A stretch of DNA of 62,534 nt, taken from positions 1-62,534 of the forward strand of contig RHKK01000014.1 in assembly GCA_008363075.1 (NCBI GenBank), written 5' to 3'. The notes below the pieces were generated by a model. It was not told the origin of the DNA. It searched no databases and was given only the letters and a program-made list of their open reading frames with translations. Position numbers and translations under genes: made by a program. This document shows, piece after piece, positions 9,743 through 57,462 of this stretch. This stretch comes from Candidatus Uhrbacteria bacterium (GTDB taxonomy: Bacteria > Patescibacteriota > Patescibacteriia > 2-12-FULL-60-25). Numbering within the stretch: the stretch's first letter is position 1; every line of letters begins with the position of its first letter.

Positions 9743-10261
9743 ATGAAGACACAAAGCGCGGTGTTCGCCGGCGGATGCTTTTGGGGCATGGAGGAGTTGT
9801 TCCGCAAACAGCCCGGCGTGACCGAGACCGAAGCCGGATACGCCGGGGGAAAAAACGAAAACCCGACGTACGAGCATCACCCAGGTCATGCGGAAGCGTT
9901 AAAGGTTACGTATGATCCGGAGAAAACGAGTTTCCGGAACCTGCTCGATTTCTTTTTCCAGATTCATGACCCCACCACGTTGAATCGGCAGGGGAATGAT
10001 GTCGGGTCTTCCTACCGATCCGCCATTTTTTATGAGAATGAGGAGCAGAAAAAGGAAGCGGAAGCGTTTATCGATCTCGTAAACAAGTCCGGGCGTTGGT
10101 CCGATCCCGTTGTCACGACGGTTGAGCCGCTCACCAACTATACGAAGGCGGAGGAGTATCACCAGAATTATTTGCAGAAGAATCCCGGAGGATACACATG
10201 CCATTTTGTGCGGCCGGGTGGGAGTTATCTGCAGAGCGCAGGGGTGAAGAGTGAAGAGTGA
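9743..10261 (+). CDS. msrA: Peptide-methionine (S)-S-oxide reductase MsrA
   Basis: Repairs oxidised methionine (S-epimer) using a reductant such as thioredoxin. The catalytic motif GGCFWGMEE is near residue 11, and the substrate-binding residues and YHQNYL motif are present. Length is 172 residues, normal for the family. The last residues (GVKSEE) and the stop codon are encoded by a GTGAAGA tandem repeat that runs on past the gene. A GAGG site precedes the ATG. No MsrB is visible nearby. Confidence 0.95.
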   Translation: MKTQSAVFAGGCFWGMEELFRKQPGVTETEAGYAGGKNENPTYEHHPGHAEALKVTYDPEKTSFRNLLDFFFQIHDPTTLNRQGNDVGSSYRSAIFYENEEQKKEAEAFIDLVNKSGRWSDPVVTTVEPLTNYTKAEEYHQNYLQKNPGGYTCHFVRPGGSYLQSAGVKSEE

Positions 10262-10317
10262 AGAGTAAAATACCGATACGTGAAAGCTGGCAACTGGCAA
10301 CTGTCTACTGTAAACTC
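10243..10317 (+). repeat. Word-array repeat (GTGAAGA and CTGGCAA/CTGTAAACT words)
   Basis: Three near-perfect GTGAAGA copies, then CTGGCAACTGGCAACTG and CTGTAAACT. Only one arm is obvious, so this looks like a half-element. It encodes the msrA C-terminus and stop and ends seven bases before the next ATG. Confidence 0.6.
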
Positions 10318-12684: not shown

Positions 12685-12757
12685 GGGGGTAGTTTACACT
12701 TTACGCCTTGCGGACGCCTATTGCGAGGCGTTTTGCATTGTGTGATAGTTGGATTGT

Positions 12758-13213
12758 ATGCGCGTACGAGACGTCATGCAGACGGAGGTCGTCACGATCC
12801 CGGTTGGGACGGCGTACCGGGACGTAGCGGCGCTTTTACGCAAGAAAGGGATTAGCGGGGCGCCGGTCGTGGATAGAGAAAGGGGCGTGGTCGGCGTCGT
12901 GTCCGAAAAGGACCTGTTTCGCGTTTTATACCCCTTTTATCGCAGTTTTTACGAGAATCCGGAGATGTACAGCGATTTGGAGGCGCGAGAAACGAAGGCG
13001 GCCGATATCGCCGACCACCCCGTGGAGCGCTTCATGTCATCCCGGGTCTGGCATATCGAACCGGACGTGCCGCTCATGCGCGCGGGAGCGATCATGCTCG
13101 CGCGCGGCATTCACCGCATGCCCGTCATGGACGGTGGTCGCCTCGTCGGCATCATCACTCGAACGGCCGTGTATCGCGCCGTTTTTGAAATACACTTACC
13201 GAGTAACGAGTAA
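12758..13213 (+). CDS. CBS-pair domain protein
   Basis: A 151-residue protein with two CBS motifs: residues ~1-60 (MRVRDVMQTEVVTIPVGTAYRD...GVVSEKDLFRVL) and ~90-150 (FMSSRVWHIEPDVPLMRAGAIM...LVGIITRTAVYRAV). Stand-alone CBS pairs usually sense adenine nucleotides or act as regulatory subunits; the partner is unknown. The final residues SNE and the stop codon come from the AGTAACGAGTAA word of the palindrome that follows. The same C-terminus and stop are found in ParB. Confidence 0.88.
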   Translation: MRVRDVMQTEVVTIPVGTAYRDVAALLRKKGISGAPVVDRERGVVGVVSEKDLFRVLYPFYRSFYENPEMYSDLEARETKAADIADHPVERFMSSRVWHIEPDVPLMRAGAIMLARGIHRMPVMDGGRLVGIITRTAVYRAVFEIHLPSNE

Positions 13214-13280
13214 CAAGTATCGTCGGACGGTTTCCGACGTTACTCGATACTCGTTATTCGTTGTTTTGTATTCGTTACCC
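13200..13280. repeat. Word-array palindrome, GAGTAAC/GAATAAC/GAGTATC family
   Basis: The left arm (CGAGTAACGAGTAAC...TATCGTCGGA) and right arm (TTCCGACGTTACTCG...TACTCGTTATTCG) are near-complementary, each built of tandem 7-8 base variants. It overlaps the 3' end of the CBS gene and precedes rarA. The same words recur at 39244 and 54179. Confidence 0.8.
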
Positions 13281-17760: not shown

Positions 17761-17824
17761 TCAGGTTTCAGGTTGTAGGTTTCAGCTCCGAAGCTAACAC
17801 CTAAAACCTAATACCTAACACCTG
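17761..17824. repeat. Word-array palindrome, CAGGTTT/TAGGT family
   Basis: Left arm TCAGGTTTCAGGTTGTAGG and right arm CCTAATACCTAACACCTG are tandem words and mutually near-complementary around AGCTCCGAAGCT. It lies between murF and tRNA-Glu. The words overlap those at 46423. Confidence 0.75.
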
Positions 17825-23134: not shown

Positions 23135-23244
23135 GCAGTTTTACAGATGACAGTTAACAGTTGACAGATAACAGAGAAATAGTTCATCTATAACCTGTTC
23201 CAGTTCGGATACTGTAAACTGATAACTGTCAATTGTTAACTGTC
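23135..23244. repeat. Word-array palindrome, ACAGTTGACAG/ACAGATAACAG family
   Basis: The left arm (ACAGATGACAGTTAACAG, then TTGACAGATAACAG) and the right arm (ACTGTAAACTGATAACTG, then TCAATTGTTAACTG) are near-complementary tandem words around a ~45-base centre. It lies between two divergent genes, so it is not simply a terminator. The same words recur at 26761 and 57383. Confidence 0.8.
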
Positions 23245-23258
23245 GAGGAGGAGGAAGC

Positions 23259-23462: not shown

Positions 23463-23484
23463 TCCGCCTAAGGCGGATTTTTTG
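23460..23484 (+). terminator. Terminator after the 67-residue gene
   Basis: The stem ATCCGCC/GGCGGAT with a TAA loop is followed by TTTTTT, overlapping the stop codon region. Confidence 0.88.
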
Positions 23485-23487
23485 CAG

Positions 23488-23515
23488 CGACTAGCTACTA
23501 GCTACTAGCTGCGCT
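23488..23515. repeat. Short CTAGCTA tandem repeat
   Basis: Three CTAGCTA/CTAGCTG units in a row (ACTAGCTACTAGCTACTAGC), self-complementary through AGCT. It sits 13 bases before the ruvX start and has the look of a minimal word-array element. TAGACT just after it may be the ruvX -10. Confidence 0.5.
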
Positions 23516-26760: not shown

Positions 26761-26836
26761 GTTTACGGGTGACGGTTTACAGTTGACAGTGAACAGATCG
26801 CCGTTCTGTCATCTGTCAACTGTTTTCTGTAAACTG
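26761..26836. repeat. Word-array palindrome, ACAGTTGACAG family
   Basis: GGTTTACAGTTGACAGTGAAC pairs with CTGTCATCTGTCAACTG and CTGTAAACTG across a short centre. It fills the gap between asnS and the next gene, and its last word (CTGTAAACT) doubles as the -10 element of that gene. Confidence 0.8.
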
Positions 26837-28411: not shown

Positions 28412-29824
28412 ATGCAACGGACGATGATCCGCGACACGGTCGCGCAGATTGGGGAGGAAGTGCTCCTTCAGGGATGGGTTCATGTCCGGCGCGACATGGG
28501 GAAACTCGCGTTTTTGGATCTGCGCGACCGTTCGGGCATCGCGCAGGTCGTCCTCGTGCCGGCCGAGTTGAGCGAACGGGGCAAGGCGGCGATGAAGGAG
28601 CTGCGCCCGGAGTTTTGCGTGACCGTAACAGGTGTCATTCAGAAGCGCGGCGAGATGCAGGTAAATCCGAACGTGCCGACGGGCGGCATCGAAATCCTCG
28701 CCAAGGACGTGGAGATTCTGAACGCGGCAAAAACACCGCCGTTCGAACTGGAAGACACGTCCGGCATCAGCGAGGAATTGCGATTAAAATACCGCTATCT
28801 CGATCTGCGTTCGTCGCGCATGCTCCGTAATCTCGAATTACGCGACAAGGTCATCACCTTTTTTCGGTCCTATTTGCACGCCCGTGGCTTTTTGGAGGTT
28901 GAGACCCCGAACCTCACCAAAGGGACGCCGGAGGGATCGCGCGAGTATCTCGTGCCGTCGCGTTTGCATCCGGGACGGTTTTACGTGCTTCCGCAATCGC
29001 CGCAGCAGTTCAAACAGTTGCTGATGGTTGGCGGCATCGAGCGATACTTCCAGATCGCGCGATGCTTCCGCGACGAGGACCAGCGCGGGGATCGTCAGCC
29101 CGAATTCACGCAACTCGACATAGAGCTTTCGTTCGTCGATCGTGAAGACGTCCTTTCGCTCATCGAGGGCATGATGATCGAGCTCGTGAAAGCCGTGACG
29201 CTGAACAAACGGATTTCACAGGTTCCGTTCCCGCGTCTTTCATACGCGGAAACAATGGAGAAATACGGGTCGGACAAGCCCGATTTGCGTAAAGACAAAA
29301 ACGATCCGGACGAGCTTGCGTTCGCGTGGATCGTGGACTTTCCGATGTTCGAAAAGAGCGATGCAGGCGGCATCCAAGCGGTACACCACCCGTTCACGTC
29401 GCCGCTGCCAGAGGATCGCGACGTTCTCGATCGCGATCCGCTCAAGACGCGCGCGAACGCGTATGATCTCGTCCTGAACGGCTACGAGATTTTCGGCGGA
29501 TCGATCCGCATCCATCAACGCGAGTTGCAGAACCGCGTCTTCGAGTTGCTCGGACTGGATGCGGACACGATCGAAGAGCGGTTCGGCCACATGCTGGAGG
29601 CGTTCGAATACGGGGCGCCGCCGCATGGCGGGATCGCGTCGGGGCTGGACCGCATCGTGATGATCCTCGCGAACGAGCCCAACATCCGCGAAGTCATCCC
29701 GTTCCCGAAGACGGGGGACGCGCGCGACCTCCTGATGGGCGCACCGAGCGAGATCGAGGAGACGCGGTTGAAGGAGGCACACATCCAAATCCGCAAACCG
29801 CAAATCGCAAACCGCAAAACTTGA
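28412..29824 (+). CDS. aspS: Aspartyl-tRNA synthetase, GAD-less form
   Basis: Class II synthetase. The OB domain begins VLLQGWVHVRRDMGKLAFLDLRD, motif 2 is FRDEDQRGDRQPEFTQLDIEL and motif 3 GIASGLDRIVMILA. Bacterial AspRS is usually near 590 residues because of the GAD insertion; here DKPDLRKDKND runs within ~10 residues into AFAWIVDFPMFE, so the insertion is absent and the length is 470. GQxQ-type specificity determinants (QSPQQFKQLLM) are intact. The last ~12 residues (IQIRKPQIANRKT) are encoded by a CCGCAAA tandem repeat, an apparent late extension. Confidence 0.94.
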   Translation: MQRTMIRDTVAQIGEEVLLQGWVHVRRDMGKLAFLDLRDRSGIAQVVLVPAELSERGKAAMKELRPEFCVTVTGVIQKRGEMQVNPNVPTGGIEILAKDVEILNAAKTPPFELEDTSGISEELRLKYRYLDLRSSRMLRNLELRDKVITFFRSYLHARGFLEVETPNLTKGTPEGSREYLVPSRLHPGRFYVLPQSPQQFKQLLMVGGIERYFQIARCFRDEDQRGDRQPEFTQLDIELSFVDREDVLSLIEGMMIELVKAVTLNKRISQVPFPRLSYAETMEKYGSDKPDLRKDKNDPDELAFAWIVDFPMFEKSDAGGIQAVHHPFTSPLPEDRDVLDRDPLKTRANAYDLVLNGYEIFGGSIRIHQRELQNRVFELLGLDADTIEERFGHMLEAFEYGAPPHGGIASGLDRIVMILANEPNIREVIPFPKTGDARDLLMGAPSEIEETRLKEAHIQIRKPQIANRKT

Positions 29825-29866
29825 TACAAGTATTTTTTTGCGACTTACGACTTACGATCTACGACG
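29793..29866. repeat. Word-array repeat, CCGCAAA and CGACTTA words
   Basis: The aspS end carries four CGCAAA(C/T)-type words, then (after a T run) CGACTTACGACTTACGATC follows. The two arms are only partly complementary. It encodes the aspS C-terminus and runs up to the scpA ATG. Confidence 0.6.
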
Positions 29867-38341: not shown

Positions 38342-39265
38342 ATGATCCTTCAAAGACAATCGGGATTGGGTAGGGGACTGGGAGCGATTATCCCGCAGAA
38401 GCCCGCGCCTTCGGCGAGTGTAGAGCGTAGCGCGAAGAGCGTAGAGCCGGAAGCTTCCGACGCTACACGCAACGCTCTACGCGATGCGCAGGTCGGGCAG
38501 CGCGTAATTGATATTCCGATCGCGAGCATCGAGCGCAATCCGCACCAGCCTCGCGTCCACTTTGATCACGGAGATCTCGAGGATTTGATTTCGAGCATCC
38601 GTGAACACGGGGTTTTGCAGCCGATCATCGTCACACCCAAGTCGGACGGGACGTATCAGCTGATCGCGGGCGAGCGTCGTTTGCGCGCCTCGACGATTGC
38701 GGGATTGAAAACGATTCCGGCGTTGGTGCGAGAGGCGACCGAGCTACAAAAACTCGAGCTTGCCATCATCGAAAACGTCCAGCGGGCGGATTTGAATCCG
38801 GTCGAAGAAGCAAAGGCGTACATGCGTCTCATGGACGAGTTCGGTATGACGCAGGAAGACATCGGCCGGAAAATCGGCAAGAGCCGCCCGCAAGTCGCGA
38901 ACATTGTGCGCCTGTTGCAACTCCCCGATGAAATACAGCAGGCCTTGGTCGAGGGCAAGATCTCGGCATCCAACGCGCGTACGCTCCTGTCGCTTCCGAC
39001 GGACAAGGAGCGTATAGATCTATTCCGCGCCATGCTCGCGGGCCACTTCACCGTGCGCCAGACGGAAACGCAGGTCTCCGTGCGCAAGCGCATTCCCGGT
39101 ACGAAGGATCCGAATATCGCCGAGGCCGAATCGCGTTTGCGTGAAGCCTTGAAAACAAAGGTTAGCATCAACCGATCCGCGCGCGGGACGGGCGATATCA
39201 AAATCCGGTTCGACTCGGATGAGGAGCTTCAGACGCTGATTCAGCGAATAACAAGTAACGAGTAA
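38342..39265 (+). CDS. parB: Chromosome-partitioning protein ParB (Spo0J) with in-frame repeat insert
   Basis: Binds parS and spreads as a CTP clamp. The N-terminal GLGRGLGAIIP (ParA-contact region) is followed by residues ~26-47 encoded by a palindromic repeat, then the ParB core: IASIERNPHQPR, the CTP-box region LIAGERRLRASTIAG, and the helix-turn-helix around TQEDIGRKIGKSRPQVANIVRL. The last residues (RITSNE) and stop come from another repeat word. Length is 307 residues. Without the insert the N-terminal linker would be about 20 residues shorter, near the family norm. Confidence 0.94.
   Translation: MILQRQSGLGRGLGAIIPQKPAPSASVERSAKSVEPEASDATRNALRDAQVGQRVIDIPIASIERNPHQPRVHFDHGDLEDLISSIREHGVLQPIIVTPKSDGTYQLIAGERRLRASTIAGLKTIPALVREATELQKLELAIIENVQRADLNPVEEAKAYMRLMDEFGMTQEDIGRKIGKSRPQVANIVRLLQLPDEIQQALVEGKISASNARTLLSLPTDKERIDLFRAMLAGHFTVRQTETQVSVRKRIPGTKDPNIAEAESRLREALKTKVSINRSARGTGDIKIRFDSDEELQTLIQRITSNE
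38418..38483. repeat. In-frame word-array palindrome inside parB
   Basis: GTGTAGAGCGTAGC...AGAGCGTAGAG faces CGCTACACGC..AACGCTCTACGC around the centre GGAAGCTTCC. The span is 66 bases (22 codons), keeps the frame open and lies in the linker between the ParA-contact peptide and the ParB core. Confidence 0.8.
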
Positions 39266-39313
39266 CGTCGTGCAAGATTTCTTCCGACGATACTCGCTAT
39301 TCGTTACTCGATT
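39244..39313. repeat. Word-array palindrome, GAGTAAC/GAATAAC family
   Basis: CGAATAACAAGTAACGAG and TAACGTCG face CGACGATACTCGCTATTCG and TTACTCG. It is the same family as 13200 and 54179. It encodes the ParB C-terminus and stop and reaches the stop of the convergent rel gene. Confidence 0.8.
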
Positions 39314-40829
39314 ATTTTCCGGGTAGCATCCCTTTGATCCAGGAACTCAAGCTAGATTTTGCGGTTTGCCGGATTTTGGATTTGGCGTTTCGCGTTTTGA
39401 CGAATTTTTCCCAATCGGGATTTGGTCCCTTGCGGGATTTATCGACCAAGATTTCGACCATGTCGCCGTTTTTGAGGATGCGGTCGAGCGTGGCGACTTC
39501 TTCGTTCACTTTTGCGCCGACCGTCGTATTTCCGATTTCCGTGTGGATTGCGTACGCGAAGTCCACGCAGGTACTGTCTTCCGGCAAGTCGATGACGTCT
39601 CCCTTTGGCGTGAATACGAAGATGCGGTCCTTGAACACGTCGATCTTCAAATCCTCCAACGACTTGATGTACGCCTTACGGTCCTCCATTTCGCGCTGGA
39701 TCTCCGCGAGTTCACGCACCCACTCCGGCGGCCGACCCTTCGGACCGACACCCATGTTGATCTTGCCGCCTTCGTCATACGACCAATGCGCGGCGATACC
39801 GTACTCGTTCATCGCATGCATTTCCTTGGTGCGGATCTGGAACTCGACGATTTCGCCGTCTTCGCAGAAGACCGTCGTGTGCAGCGAGCGGTAGCCGTTC
39901 GGTTTTGGCTGGGCGATGTAATCCTTGATACGGCCTTTGAGCGGCGTCCATTCCGCATGGATGATGCCGAGGGCGGCATAGCAATCCGCAAGCGAATCGA
40001 CGATGACGCGGACGGCGATCAGATCGTAAATCCTGGCGATATTCCTTTCATTCTTGAGCAATTTGCGGTAGAGCGAATAGAGGTGCTTGTTCCGTCCCTG
40101 CACCTCGAGATCCTTGAGACCGGCATCGCGAAGCACGTGCTCGGTTTTTTCCATGATGCGAGTCAGGTAGGCCTCTTTTTCCGCACGTCCGGACGCGGCG
40201 ATTTCCTTGACCCACGCGTATTCCTTGGGCAGCACGTACTTGAACGAGGCGTCTTCGAGCCGGCCTTTCATCTCGCCCATCCCGAGACGGTTGGCGATCG
40301 GCGCGTAAATTTCAAGCGATTCCAAGGCGATGCGGTACTGTTTTTTCGGAGGGATGGAATCGAGCGTTTCGAGGTTATGCAGCCGGTCGGCGAACTTGAT
40401 GAAGACGACACGTACATCGGCTGCCATCGCGAGGAACATCTTGCGAAGGTTTTCGATATATCGCTCCATGCCGCGGTATTTGATTTTCCCAAGCTTGGTG
40501 ATGCCCGCGACCATGTTCGCGACATCCTCTCCGAACGCGTTGCGCACGTCTTCGAGCGTGCGCGGCGTATCCTCCGGGACGTCGTGCAACAAACCCGCGA
40601 TGATGATCGGGGCGGGCAGCCGCATTTCGGCCAGGTTCATGGCCGTCGCGAGCGGATGGATGATGTACGGTTCTCCGGTGGCGCGTTTCTGCTCCTTATG
40701 GGCTTCTTTGGCGAAATCGTATGCCAGGCGAATGGTATCGGCATCGGCGTTCGCGTCATACGCACGTACGCGCTCGACAAGCGCGTCCACGGTGTGTGCG
40801 GGGGCCTTGGGGGACATACGCCCAAGCAT
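39312..40829 (-). CDS. rel: RelA/SpoT-type (p)ppGpp synthetase/hydrolase
   Basis: A 505-residue stringent-response enzyme. The HD hydrolase domain covers ~40-190 with HPLATAMNLAEM and AGLLHDVPEDT, keeping the HD pair and later KFADRLHNLETLD. The synthetase domain has RIYDLIAVRVIV, PKPNGYRSLHTTV and the FQIRTKEMHAMNEYGIAAHW motif. A TGS domain follows (IFVFTPKGDVIDLPEDSTCVDFAYAIH). The C-terminal helical/ACT region of long Rel proteins is absent, so ribosome-linked regulation may differ. The start is either 40829 or 40817; both ATGs are close to TopA's convergent partner promoter. Confidence 0.93.
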   Translation of the reverse strand: MLGRMSPKAPAHTVDALVERVRAYDANADADTIRLAYDFAKEAHKEQKRATGEPYIIHPLATAMNLAEMRLPAPIIIAGLLHDVPEDTPRTLEDVRNAFGEDVANMVAGITKLGKIKYRGMERYIENLRKMFLAMAADVRVVFIKFADRLHNLETLDSIPPKKQYRIALESLEIYAPIANRLGMGEMKGRLEDASFKYVLPKEYAWVKEIAASGRAEKEAYLTRIMEKTEHVLRDAGLKDLEVQGRNKHLYSLYRKLLKNERNIARIYDLIAVRVIVDSLADCYAALGIIHAEWTPLKGRIKDYIAQPKPNGYRSLHTTVFCEDGEIVEFQIRTKEMHAMNEYGIAAHWSYDEGGKINMGVGPKGRPPEWVRELAEIQREMEDRKAYIKSLEDLKIDVFKDRIFVFTPKGDVIDLPEDSTCVDFAYAIHTEIGNTTVGAKVNEEVATLDRILKNGDMVEILVDKSRKGPNPDWEKFVKTRNAKSKIRQTAKSSLSSWIKGMLPGK

Positions 40830-44629: not shown

Positions 44630-44720
44630 ATAACCGCTAACCTTTAACCATGAACCTTTACTGCCGCTAATGTATGAGGTTATCGGTTAGAGGTTAAAGG
44701 TTAGCGGTTATAGGTTAACT
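44630..44720. repeat. Word-array palindrome, AACCTTTAACC/GCTAACC family
   Basis: ATAACCGCTAACCTTTAACC faces GGTTAGAGGTTAAAGG and TTAGCGGTTATAGG, near-perfect arms of tandem 7-8 base words. It lies between dprA (upstream) and topA (downstream) on the minus strand and ends a few bases from both. Confidence 0.82.
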
Positions 44721-46422: not shown

Positions 46423-46494
46423 AGCTTCCAGCTTTCAGGTTCCCGCTTTCAGCCTGATACTAACACCTGAAAGCTGGAAGCTGAAAGCTAATAT
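46423..46494. repeat. Word-array palindrome, AGCTTTCAGGT/AGCTTCC family
   Basis: TAGCTTCCAGCTTTCAGG faces CCTGAAAGCTGGAAGCTG and AAAGCTA. Tandem 8-9 base words form both arms. It supplies the TAG stop of der and ends at the pth start. Confidence 0.8.
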
Positions 46495-47969
46495 CTTCTT
46501 CCTCCGTGTTTCTGTCGCCGCCTTGTGAGGTTCACGAGCCGCTTTTTCTCGCGGATTTTGCCCGCAACGGCTTCCATCCCCGGCCCCTGGACATTGCGCG
46601 CCTTGGACGTTTTAGCGATGGGCAAGTGCCGTACTTTGACGACGATCGGCGTGCCGATGAAGCCGAATTTTTCACGCAGACGCTTCTCGAAAAACTTGAG
46701 CCAATTCGGATGCAGGTTTTCCTTATCGCCGTGGACGGTAATCAAGAATGTCGGAGGGGCGTGACCGACTTGGGCCGCGTCATAAATGCGCGGTGATTTG
46801 GGCCCGTAGCTCGCGAGCGGCTTCATCTTCTTGATCGTGGCCTTGAGCAAGCGGTTCACGGCATTGTAATCAATGTGGCGATAACGCTCCTCCTGGACCT
46901 CCAACGCACGCTCGACGAGCTTGGTCGTTCGTTGTCCCGTTTTTGCGCTGACGAATACCATCGGTGCCCAATTGAGGAAGGGGAACAGCTGGCGGATGAG
47001 CGCCTCATACTCCTTCGGCGTCCCCGTTTCCTTTTGCGGCACGAGATCCCACTTGTTCGCGACGAGAATGAGGCCTTTGCTCGCCTCCTGCAGCATGCCC
47101 GCGAGATGGCGATCCTGCGAGGTCGGGTCCTGCGTCGCGTCAAAGACGAGCAGCGCGACGTCCGCGCGCTCGACCGCCTCGAGATTGCGCTCGACGCCGG
47201 CGCGTTCCACGCCTTTTTCGATCTTGGAACGCGTGCGCATCCCGGCCGTGTCCACGATCGTGACGGGCTTGCCGTCGAATTCGAACTCCGTGTCCTGCGG
47301 TTCGCGCGTCGTGTGGGCGATCGGGGAGACGATCACGCGCTCTTCGCCCAGGATGGCGTTTACGAGCGACGACTTGCCCACGTTCGGACGGCCCACGAGC
47401 ACGAGTCGGAGAGACGGATGTTCCTCGACCGGTACGGGCGGCTTGCCGAGACGGTCAAGCTCGACCGTAACCTCGTCGAGGAGATCGCCGACGCCGAGTC
47501 CCGTGGCCGCGCTCACCGGATGAGGCATGCCCATCGCGAGCGAATACAGCTCTTCATCGGTGCCTTGCGGGAAGTATTTGAGGGTGTCGACCTTGTTCGA
47601 CACGAGCCAGACCGGTTTTTTGGATTTCAACACCTCGCGCGCGAGCTTCCGATCCTGTGGCAGGATGCCCGCACGCGCATCCACGACGAACAGTACGAGA
47701 TCCGCGTCCTTGATCGCGAGCTCCGCCTGGCGGCGGATCCCGATACCGATCTCGTCCGCCTCCGTATCCATCCCGCCCGTGTCGACGAGGCCGAATGTCC
47801 CCGCGCGCCAAAGCACGCGACCGAAATTGCGGTCGCGTGTCGTATGCTCTTCTTCGCTGACCACGGCGCGGCCGCTTTCGGTCAGACGATTCCAGAGCGT
47901 CGATTTTCCGACGTTCGTGCGTCCGACAAGGGCGACGACGGGGAGGTTAGGGTTGCGTTTTCGTGGCAT
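46488..47969 (-). CDS. der: Ribosome-associated GTPase Der (EngA)
   Basis: Two tandem Era-like GTPase domains needed for 50S assembly. G1 motifs are GRTNVGKST (near 16) and GRPNVGKSS (near 192); G3 motifs are DTGGM and DTAGM; NKVD and NKWD supply G4. The C-terminal KH-like domain spans ~380-470, followed by a basic tail (RRRQKHGGRRY). Length is 493 residues. It overlaps the upstream LCP gene by 23 bases, implying co-translation. Confidence 0.96.
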   Translation of the reverse strand: MPRKRNPNLPVVALVGRTNVGKSTLWNRLTESGRAVVSEEEHTTRDRNFGRVLWRAGTFGLVDTGGMDTEADEIGIGIRRQAELAIKDADLVLFVVDARAGILPQDRKLAREVLKSKKPVWLVSNKVDTLKYFPQGTDEELYSLAMGMPHPVSAATGLGVGDLLDEVTVELDRLGKPPVPVEEHPSLRLVLVGRPNVGKSSLVNAILGEERVIVSPIAHTTREPQDTEFEFDGKPVTIVDTAGMRTRSKIEKGVERAGVERNLEAVERADVALLVFDATQDPTSQDRHLAGMLQEASKGLILVANKWDLVPQKETGTPKEYEALIRQLFPFLNWAPMVFVSAKTGQRTTKLVERALEVQEERYRHIDYNAVNRLLKATIKKMKPLASYGPKSPRIYDAAQVGHAPPTFLITVHGDKENLHPNWLKFFEKRLREKFGFIGTPIVVKVRHLPIAKTSKARNVQGPGMEAVAGKIREKKRLVNLTRRRQKHGGRRY

Positions 47970-54178: not shown

Positions 54179-54237
54179 TCGAATAATGAATATCGAGTAA
54201 CGTCCGACGATACCCGCTACTCGTTATTCGTGGTATT
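54179..54237. repeat. Word-array palindrome, GAATAAT/GAGTAAC family
   Basis: TCGAATAATGAATATCGAG and TAACGTC face GACGATACCCGCTACTCG and TTATTCG. It is the third member of the family seen at 13200 and 39244, here inside the T4SS-type cluster before the PrgI gene. Confidence 0.78.
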
Positions 54238-54777: not shown

Positions 54778-55473
54778 ATGCAAAGCAAAAAACTGGCCGG
54801 TGCCAAACCCGGCGTTCCCTCGCAGAAGTTCCTCGACATTGCGGAGATCCGCGACGATCTTGTGATTTTGCGCGACGGAACGATCCGCTCCGTGCTGCTT
54901 GTTTCGAGCATCAATTTTGCCCTCAAGTCCATCGACGAACAAAACGCCATCGTGCAGGCGTACATGCAATTCCTGAACGCGCTCGAATTCCCGATCCAGG
55001 TCTCGATCCAATCGAGGCGCATGAACATCGACAGCTACATGCGACAGTTGGACGAGAACGAAAAAATGCTTACGAACGATTTGTTGAAACGTCAGATCCG
55101 GGACTATCGCGATTTCGTGAACCAGCTCATCAAGCTCGGTGACATCATGCAAAAACGGTTTTACGTGGTCGTCCCGTACAATCCGCTCGATAAAAGCGGG
55201 GGAGGGAGTACGCAACGCGGATTTTTCCAACGGCTCGGCGACGTACTCTCGCCCACGATCGCCGGCAAGATTTCCGAAGAGAAGTTCCAGAAGATGAAAT
55301 TCGAAATGGGACTGCGCGTGAACCAGATGATCGGCGGGCTCTCATCGATGTCGCTCAATGCGGTGCAACTCGATACGCAAAGTCTGATCGAGCTCTACTA
55401 TACGGTCTATAACCCGCAACTCTTCGAGACCCAACGCATGACCGATTTGGACAGATTGCAGATTGAAGGATAA
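54778..55473 (+). CDS. VirB4/TraC N-terminal-domain-like protein
   Basis: A 231-residue soluble protein resembling the N-terminal domain of TraC/VirB4 ATPases, split off as a separate gene: FLDIAEIRDDLVILRDGTIRSVLLV, then FLNALEFPIQVSIQSRRMNID and a helical middle, LPY-like VVPYNP and a C-terminal LIELYYTVYNPQLFE. It carries no ATPase motif. The VirB4 ATPase gene begins five bases downstream, so the pair probably works as one unit on the inner face of the membrane. Confidence 0.82.
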   Translation: MQSKKLAGAKPGVPSQKFLDIAEIRDDLVILRDGTIRSVLLVSSINFALKSIDEQNAIVQAYMQFLNALEFPIQVSIQSRRMNIDSYMRQLDENEKMLTNDLLKRQIRDYRDFVNQLIKLGDIMQKRFYVVVPYNPLDKSGGGSTQRGFFQRLGDVLSPTIAGKISEEKFQKMKFEMGLRVNQMIGGLSSMSLNAVQLDTQSLIELYYTVYNPQLFETQRMTDLDRLQIEG

Positions 55474-55477
55474 TCCT

Positions 55478-57388
55478 ATGGCTTTCCAACCGACACATAA
55501 GCAGGCTATCGACGCCGAACAGATCGCCAAGGACGGTGTAAAGCTGAAGAAGGGTCCGTCCAAGGAAGAGCTGAAACGCCAACAGGAGGAGCAACGCGTC
55601 GCGCTTGAAGAAGAACGGATTTACCGGCGAGGCGTCGCGTCGATCAAGGACCTGATCGCGCCTGCGGCCATAAACGTCGAGCCGTCGTTCGTGCGGCTTG
55701 GCGACGTGTTCTGCCGCACGCTCTTCGTCGTGACGTACCCGCGTTACGTGACGGTCGGATGGGCCTCGCCGATCATCAACCTCTCGGCCCAGCTCGATAT
55801 CGCGATGTATTTCTATCCGATCAAGGCGGATATCATCCTGAAGCAGCTCAAGAAAAAGGTCGGCGTGCTGGAAGCGCAAATCTCATCCGACGCCGAGTCC
55901 GGCAAGCCGCGCGACCCGATCGCGGAGACGGCGCTGCGCGACATCGAGCAGTTGCGCGACGACCTCACGCAGGGGATCGAACACTTTTTCCAATTCGCGT
56001 TTTATTGCACGTTCTACTCGACCGACAAGGACGAGCTGGAACGGCTCACGAGCCAGGTGGAAAGCACGTTCGCGTCGATGCTGATTTATACTCGCCGCGC
56101 GTATTTCCAGGCCGAGCAGGGGTTCAACTCGACGCTGCCGCTCGGGAACGACGAGCTCCAGATCACGTTCAACATGAGCACGTCGCCGATCGCGTCGTCG
56201 TTCCCGTTCACGTCGGCGGAACTCACGAGCGACAACGGCATCCTGTACGGCGTGAACCGCCACAATAACTCGCTCATCATCTTCGACCGGTTCTCGCTGC
56301 AAAACGCGAACGCGATCATCTTCGCGACGTCCGGCGCCGGGAAGTCATACGCGGTCAAACTCGAGATCATCCGGTCGATGATGCTCGGCGTGGAAGTGAT
56401 CGTCATCGACCCGGAAATGGAATACAAGGCGCTTTCGGACGCCGTCGGCGGGACGTACATCAATATTTCGCTCGCGTCGCGATCGAAAATCAATCCGTTT
56501 GACCTGCCACGTCCGACCGGCGAGGCGTTTTCCGTCGAGGACATCATCCGGAGCGCGGTCATCACCATCAAGGGTCTCTTGCGCATCATGCTCGGCAAGA
56601 TCACGACGGCGGAAGACTCGATTTTGGACCGCGCGCTGCTTGAGACGTATGCGAAGAAGGACATCGTGCCGGGCGTGGAGCTTTCTACGGTTGAACCGCC
56701 GGTGCTGCAGGATTTTCAGGATATTCTCGAGGGCATGGAAGGCACGACGGACCTGATCGTGAAACTGCGCAAGTTTACGGAAGGCACGTTTGCGGGCCTC
56801 CTAAACTCGCCGACCACGGTGCAAATGAACAATCAGCTCGTCACGTTCTCCGTGCGCGACCTCGAAGACGAGCTGCGCCCGATGGCGATCTATACCATCA
56901 TCAACTATATCTGGAACGTCGTGCGCTCAGAGCGCAAGAAGCGCATCCTCGTGATCGACGAAGCCTGGTGGCTCATGCAGCACGAGGATTCGGCCAAGTT
57001 CATCTTCGCGCTCGTCAAGCGCTGCCGCAAATACTTCCTCGGTATCACGACCATCACGCAGGACGTGAACGACTTTTTGACCTCGCCGTACGGTCAGGCC
57101 ATCGTCACCAACAGCTCGATGCAGCTCCTGCTCAAGCAGTCGCCTGCGTCGATCGATCTCGTGGCACGCACGTTCCTGCTCACGCAGTCCGAAAAGTATC
57201 TCCTGCTCGAATCCGGCGTGGGCGAAGGGATTTTCTTTGCGGGGGCGAAACACGCCGCGATCCAGGTCGTGGCCTCATATACGGAAGACCAGATCGTCAC
57301 GACTAATCCGGAACAACTGCTCAAGATCGAGCAGCAAAAAAAGGAGTTTGAAGCCGCCCAACGCGGCGAAGCGCCGACGGCGAGTTAA
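55478..57388 (+). CDS. VirB4-like ATPase of the T4SS-type cluster
   Basis: A 636-residue motor protein. A charged N-terminal tail and a CagE/TrbE-like domain (~50-260) precede the ATPase domain with Walker A ATSGAGKSYAVK (near 290), IVIDPEMEYKALSDAVGG, Walker B ILVIDEAWWLM (near 490) and TQDVNDFL. The C-terminal LLLESGVGEGIFFAG is typical of VirB4/TraC. The start at 55478 is the first ATG after the upstream stop. The stop codon is made by the adjoining repeat (AGTTAACAG). No relaxase or coupling protein lies in the window. Confidence 0.93.
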   Translation: MAFQPTHKQAIDAEQIAKDGVKLKKGPSKEELKRQQEEQRVALEEERIYRRGVASIKDLIAPAAINVEPSFVRLGDVFCRTLFVVTYPRYVTVGWASPIINLSAQLDIAMYFYPIKADIILKQLKKKVGVLEAQISSDAESGKPRDPIAETALRDIEQLRDDLTQGIEHFFQFAFYCTFYSTDKDELERLTSQVESTFASMLIYTRRAYFQAEQGFNSTLPLGNDELQITFNMSTSPIASSFPFTSAELTSDNGILYGVNRHNNSLIIFDRFSLQNANAIIFATSGAGKSYAVKLEIIRSMMLGVEVIVIDPEMEYKALSDAVGGTYINISLASRSKINPFDLPRPTGEAFSVEDIIRSAVITIKGLLRIMLGKITTAEDSILDRALLETYAKKDIVPGVELSTVEPPVLQDFQDILEGMEGTTDLIVKLRKFTEGTFAGLLNSPTTVQMNNQLVTFSVRDLEDELRPMAIYTIINYIWNVVRSERKKRILVIDEAWWLMQHEDSAKFIFALVKRCRKYFLGITTITQDVNDFLTSPYGQAIVTNSSMQLLLKQSPASIDLVARTFLLTQSEKYLLLESGVGEGIFFAGAKHAAIQVVASYTEDQIVTTNPEQLLKIEQQKKEFEAAQRGEAPTAS

Positions 57389-57454
57389 CAGAAACGGTTC
57401 ACAGTTGACAGTGCGCGGGCCACATTCTGTTAACCGTCGTCTGTAAACTGTACA
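57383..57454. repeat. Word-array palindrome, ACAGTTGACAG family
   Basis: GTTAACAGAAACGGTTCACAG and TTGACAGTG face ATTCTGTTAACCGTCGTCTG and TAAACTGTAC. It is the third full member of the family at 23135 and 26761, located between the virB4-like gene and the next gene. Confidence 0.78.
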
Positions 57455-57462
57455 CTACCCCT

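Follow-up and report, generated by a model that had tools for sequence, protein, structure and literature searches.

The window (the whole stretch of DNA that was analysed, 62,534 nucleotides of contig RHKK01000014.1 from a Candidatus Uhrbacteria bacterium) carries a CBS-domain gene, parB, msrA, aspS, der and a virB4/TraG-like ATPase gene, whose 3' ends lie in or at arrays of tandem 7-nt words (heptads), and further heptad palindromes are found between other genes (Table 1). It had been proposed in the initial annotation that such words write the C-termini and stop codons of these proteins, the elements having landed on or grown into gene 3' ends and replaced the original termini.

Table 1. 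Genes and heptad features of the window (positions counted from its first letter; z, folding score)
Feature	Position	Strand	Remark
msrA	9743..10261	+	MsrA by Pfam; native GSYL followed by QSAG (non-heptad) and VKSEE-stop (repeat)
GTGAAGA array followed by CTGGCAA array	10238..10316	.	no stable hairpin; z +0.94
CBS-domain gene	12749..13213	+	PF00571; tail about 5 aa longer
3' end of the CBS gene, TTACCGAGTAACGAGTAA	13196..13213	+	codes LPSNE-stop; left arm of the GAGTAAC palindrome
GAGTAAC-family palindrome at the CBS 3' end	13200..13260	.	28-nt arms, 86% complementary; more heptads to 13281
TCAGGTT / CTAACAC heptad palindrome	17761..17823	.	3' of a Mur ligase gene
AACAGT-family heptad palindrome	23143..23250	.	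on the 5' side of a gene
AACAGT-family heptad palindrome	26765..26830	.	between genes
aspS (AspRS)	28412..29824	+	class II tRNA synthetase by Pfam; native HIQIRK kept, PQIANRKT added
CGCAAA / TTTGCGACTTACGA heptad pair	29786..29865	.	fills the aspS-scpA junction
parB	38342..39265	+	ParB domains by Pfam; native tail displaced
Heptad array and inverted partner within parB	38416..38498	.	11 residues extra relative to G018
66-nt GAGTAAC-family palindrome	39245..39310	.	z -5.40; inserted at the ParB/RelA end overlap of G018
Displaced native parB tail, TTATTTTCCGGGTAG (LFSG-stop)	39312..39326	+	from flank joining
TAACCTT / GGTTA heptad palindrome	44631..44718	.	intergenic; the gap measures 105 nt, in G018 -4
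AGCTTTC / CTGAAAG palindrome	46424..46490	.	outermost edge is the der stop TAG; -32.3 kcal/mol, z -5.05
der (GTPase)	46488..47969	-	Der-type GTPase by Pfam; C-terminus unchanged
Short GAGTAAC-family palindrome	54180..54230	.	51 nt, 2 nt past a stop
virB4/TraG-like ATPase gene	55463..57388	+	TraG/VirB4-like by Pfam; tail variable
AACAG-family heptads	57383..57462	.	from the virB4-like stop (TAA) to the next start; z -1.31, not significant

Gene ends carrying heptad repeats

The CBS-domain protein ends PSNE-stop and ParB ends RITSNE-stop, and both ends had been ascribed to one palindrome family. This was borne out: the 12-mer AGTAACGAGTAA was found in two exact copies in the window (13202-13213 and 39254-39265), both coding SNE-stop, and both elements are GAGTAAC copies. 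Relatives of the CBS protein end FEIH-stop or FEIE-stop, and in the window FEIH is followed by LPSNE-stop; the element at this end folded into a hairpin of -33.6 kcal/mol (z -6.45).

The final codons of parB (CGA ATA ACA AGT AAC GAG TAA) fall inside its element. In the closest relative compared (G018; 72% identity in ParB), the stops of ParB and RelA overlap by 12 nt, and the displaced parB codons of the window persist as the 3' end of RelA on the minus strand. When the flanks were joined without the element, the protein read LIQRLFSG-stop in place of LIQRITSNE-stop, the corresponding end in G018 being LLDRLDR-stop. Judged from these joined flanks, the ParB tail is a replacement at similar length. 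The site shows a 3-nt CGA repeat, which may be a target duplication of the sort expected of a MITE but can also belong to the element ends. The element at 38416-38498 is a second heptad insert of parB, near the N-terminus. In another genus (G022; L072), ParB ends KITSN-stop from TTACTAGTAACTAATTACTAG, like the ITSNE tail of the window.

Two further ends agreed with the initial reading, in which AspRS owes its tail to CGCAAA words and MsrA its KSEE-stop to GTGAAGA words. Relatives of AspRS end HIxIKK-stop, and the end in the window, KPQIANRKT-stop, is written by CGCAAA words at a junction with ScpA that in G018 is a 4-nt stop/start overlap; KPQIANRK(PQ) recurs inside a large alpha-2-macroglobulin-like protein on contig C12. 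MsrA of relatives ends GSYL-stop or GSYLA-stop, and VKSEE-stop of the window comes from GTGAAGA words, the preceding QSAG being non-heptad. By sequence comparison, AspRS, CBS and MsrA have 5-9 residues added and the native end kept. AspRS tails of three relatives (G001, G003 and G022) show heptad-like arrays; the AspRS end of G021 (L102), KKSIKSIKSIKSVRSVK, looks like tandem 9-nt units and not 7-nt ones.

The stops of der (TAG) and of the virB4-like gene (TAA) were also said to be repeat-made; they do lie at repeat edges, but that the repeats made them was not demonstrable. Replacement of the original termini held for ParB with its joined flanks and not for AspRS, CBS and MsrA, where residues were added to native ends, and it failed for Der, which has the same end (RRQKHGGRRY-stop) in the window and in G018.

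These tails might be ordinary variable C-termini that merely resemble repeat words, as is true of Der and possible for VirB4, whose tails differ in every relative compared; ParB tails, too, vary in length and sequence among all relatives. We consider this explanation highly improbable for the set, as chance would yield just 0.06 matches to the shared 12-mer even with 1 mismatch allowed, AspRS, CBS and MsrA extend past conserved ends, and similarity drops at the repeat edge.

Arrays across the genome and their empty sites

The genome was scanned over 1,099,144 bases in 25 contigs, with genes called by a simple codon-based script. Approximately 190 arrays of period 7 were obtained, against 1-5 for periods 4, 5, 8, 10, 11 and 13 at the same threshold. 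The words were varied (105 types among 196 arrays), and arrays at unlinked loci grouped into sequence families of 31, 28, 21, 12, 7 and 7. Adjacent arrays formed 42 pairs, 28 inverted and 1 direct, and just one detectable array was seen in 165 of 204 clusters; 157 of 246 array midpoints lay between genes. The elements span a median of 70 nt and carry no GTAG/CGTC end tag. Dispersed short palindromes of several families occur in the genome, roughly 55-95 nt in length and with arms made of tandem 7-nt words.

The GAGTAAC family is built of four heptads, a loop of about 10 nt and four more heptads, with CGTCGGA/TCCGACG as the loop-proximal heptads; CGTC is located within the arms. Eight of the 14 copies measured 66 nt, the lengths ranged from 51 to 88 nt, and the arms varied in length. 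Folding of six elements gave three strongly significant hairpins (z -5 to -6.5), and no significant hairpin was obtained for the repeats at the msrA, aspS and virB4-like junctions. A search of the window with Rfam returned four tRNAs and nothing else. At 23483-23514, a self-complementary AGCTACT heptad array lies between two small ORFs.

In G018, whose proteins are about 70-75% identical to those of this genome, just 10 arrays were found in 1.0 Mb at the same threshold. Other relatives (G006, G013, G022, G030 and G033) were rich in arrays when counted by loci. Syntenic gene pairs with an array here (n=74) had a median gap of 80 nt, against 12.5 nt in G018, while pairs with no array (n=267) had medians of 20 and 9 nt, respectively (p=1.4e-14 for the array contrast). 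Because of this difference in the array-bearing gaps, the arrays are, as far as synteny can tell, insertions of about 50 nt, although at such a distance from the nearest relative the gaps could have widened by other means. Several junctions of G018 are 4-nt stop/start overlaps, where an insertion can hardly avoid altering the upstream end. That elements landed on gene 3' ends, as had been claimed, is supported by these empty sites together with the copies of the 66-nt palindrome at unlinked sites.

The arrays may otherwise have grown in place by 7-nt polymerase slippage into 3' ends, with no copied element landing. Such growth would suit the many different heptad words, the native edge codons that match the word (CGC AAA in AspRS, CGA in ParB) and the variable arms of GAGTAAC, and slippage has been proposed for heptamers, which outnumber every other class among the longer simple repeats (PMC4679880). 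It does not fit the sequence families at unlinked loci, the constant 66-nt architecture with its loop-proximal heptads, the pairing of arms as inverted copies or the empty site of ParB, and we regard slippage in place as improbable. The elements have probably been copied to many sites after the split from the G018 lineage.

Furthermore, arrays were found within genes. Among 46 arrays in aligned coding sequence, 20 (17 genes) fell where the protein has 4 or more residues that G018 lacks; positions drawn at random from these genes gave a rate of 8%, and control-period arrays gave 0 of 21 (p=8e-11). Of the five internal GAGTAAC copies, four used frame 0 and the fifth a different frame. Within LeuRS and a RecJ-like protein, the 66-nt palindrome is read as [RV]TSNEYRR...DTRYS, the editing region of LeuRS carrying RITSNEYRRTGSDSTIPDTRYS and the DHH/RecJ-like protein RVTNSEYRRMGTGSTIFDTRYS; these insertions were checked against about 20 and 16 relatives, respectively. 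With the RecJ-like protein as query, the peptide was matched at 62-76% identity in two unrelated proteins, one of them LeuRS. On the reading of the codons, RITSNE-stop of ParB and RVTSNE-stop of another gene are this internal-copy peptide, cut by TAA in the third heptad. In other genera (L398, L409, L414 and L427), the same loops of LeuRS and the RecJ-like protein hold different, repeat-looking extra peptides. The RecJ-like ORF (L021:2235-3443) is 402 aa long in an open frame of 440 aa, and most relatives have frames of about 600 aa.

Stops, starts and C-termini

More arrays lay on 3' ends than on 5' ends of genes (41 vs 13). Under random placement of each array within its own gap, 24.9±4.1 contacts with a stop were expected and 29 were observed, whereas start codons were contacted by 9 arrays against 26.0±4.4. 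With stop contact at chance and starts avoided, the 3' excess is better read as avoidance of starts than as attraction to stop codons, and the latter was rejected.

The initial annotation expected a sharp loss of similarity at the repeat edge, and 33 orthologues with a 3'-end array were compared, one case with very long unaligned tails being left out. The unaligned tail grew with the overlap of the array (Spearman 0.58, p=0.0004); where the overlap was at least 10 nt, its median was 6 residues, compared with 1 residue for genes lacking an array (p=0.003). The loss of similarity was hence confirmed for these overlaps, but the net change in length was small (median +2, p=0.08), and with all overlaps pooled genome-wide no significant length shift was obtained (p=0.18). 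At gene ends, the repeats mostly lengthen the protein or leave its end unchanged.

Elements whose stops face inward outnumbered those facing outward (45 vs 13, p=3e-5). This bias, the strong folding of three of the six elements, and the suggestion that STRR (short tandemly repeated repetitive) hairpins near 3' ends act as terminators (PMC2670836) would all suit a selected function, with hairpins recruited to 3' ends and retained because they terminate transcription or stop translation. Against it, arrays occurred equally often whether the flanking genes converge, run in tandem or diverge (16%, 20% and 16%), stop contact was at the level of chance, copies also lie within genes, and the inward bias was not significant in relatives, nor in other phyla with GAGTAAC words excluded. 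A role as intrinsic terminators was rejected on the equal convergent and divergent shares (3' ends were not favoured over 5'-5' gaps), and a selected function in general appears very improbable to us. The inward bias was likewise rejected as a general rule, being significant in this genome alone; it may reflect survivorship or family history.

Likeness to known repeats and a proposed mechanism

Rickettsia palindromic elements (RPEs) are short dispersed palindromes in several families, placed between genes and in frame within them, each with an open frame for a recurring peptide (PMC10969869), and they carry CGTC at one end (PMC3733652). The palindromes described here resemble them in their many loci, their place in frame inside protein genes and their recurring encoded peptide. 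They differ in length (55-95 nt, against about 150 nt), in having arms of tandem heptamers, in sequence and lineage, and in their ends, where no CGTC tag was found. Judged by the published descriptions of RPEs, the elements seem to work like RPEs and are not members.

The cyanobacterial STRR sequences usually have 7-bp units and form hairpins between genes (PMC2670836). The excess of tandem 7-nt words here, mainly intergenic and with significant hairpins in three of six elements, is alike; in-frame peptides common to several proteins and a 66-nt palindrome are not part of the STRR description. In Beggiatoaceae, MacGregor (2015) described direct repeats of the heptamer TAACTGA, mostly intergenic, which overlap ORF ends by no more than 18 nt because forward repeats stop all three frames (PMC4679880); stops overlapping heptamer repeats are thus already published. 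The heptamer arrays are mostly intergenic in both cases, and the related words AACTGNC and AACAGTT occur here. However, the Beggiatoaceae repeats are one word in direct repeats, mostly just upstream of starts, whereas this genome has many words, inverted pairs and avoided starts. REP/REPIN sequences are likewise dispersed intergenic palindromes, but of 20-40 bp and with a GTAG or CGTC tag on one end, while the units here are larger (median 70 nt), untagged and have heptad arms. No match to the Y1 (RAYT-type) transposase, PF01797, was found in this genome (G000, 99.9% complete), although it is present in 17 of the 38 genomes searched, and no reverse transcriptase was found in it either; origins through REP/RAYT or reverse transcriptase were rejected, as no such gene was found. 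No combination of this kind, coding palindromes having arms of heptads in such a genome, was found in the open-access literature searched.

Together with the period-7 excess, the sequence families, the inverted arms and the hairpins, the empty sites and the in-frame copies make it likely that the arrays are dispersed coding palindromes, RPE-like and made from STRR-type heptamers, inserted between and inside genes. Copies would arrive by a transposition-like process in trans, and those that break a gene would be lost, so that placement would reflect survivorship. The short junctions of a packed genome would receive the elements, and sometimes gene interiors would too. Between genes, the outcome would be a wider gap; at a 3' end, a word bearing TAA, TGA or TAG would give a new stop and a few tail residues; inside a gene, a copy with one stop-free frame would add approximately 10-22 in-frame residues in tolerant loops. 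Tolerant protein sites appear to have been hit repeatedly, and arms may later have been altered by slippage. The diversity of words weighs against the insertion of dispersed palindromes, since plain copying of one element leaves it unexplained, and so do the many single-array clusters, the non-folding repeats at msrA, aspS and virB4, and the fact that neither a Y1 transposase nor a reverse transcriptase was found as a mobilizer.

Insertion of coding palindromes would link the literature on heptamer repeats (STRR, TAACTGA) with that on protein-coding palindromes, bringing RPE behaviour into a 1.1-Mb genome. Since G018 is nearly free of repeats, a comparison can ask at which sites proteins tolerate such peptides and if these are of any consequence. 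As a caution, unusual tails or loops of such proteins may have come from repeats. A bolder reading, which we put forward tentatively and hold to be rather doubtful, is that these are new mobile coding palindromes of 7-nt words whose host has none of the transposase kinds searched; inward stop-bearing arms would be harmless at gene ends, stop-free copies would spread in frame into essential genes, and a similar process would lie behind scattered heptamer repeats in many phyla.

The word AGTAACGAGTAACGAGTAAC, (GAGTAAC)n, was found in at least 118 stretches from many phyla, mostly as plain arrays, including Chloroflexota, Planctomycetota, Cyanobacteria, Nitrospirota and Gemmatimonadota. Among the matches listed, the CGTCGGA core of the 66-nt element was not recognised in the GAGTAAC stretches of other phyla, a core-like string lying nearby at four loci and a facing arm at six. 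The 66-nt element as one shared with other phyla was rejected, the word being widespread but its core not recognised there. Some of the AGTAACGAGTAACGAGTAAC stretches adjoin other heptad words that are also present in this genome.
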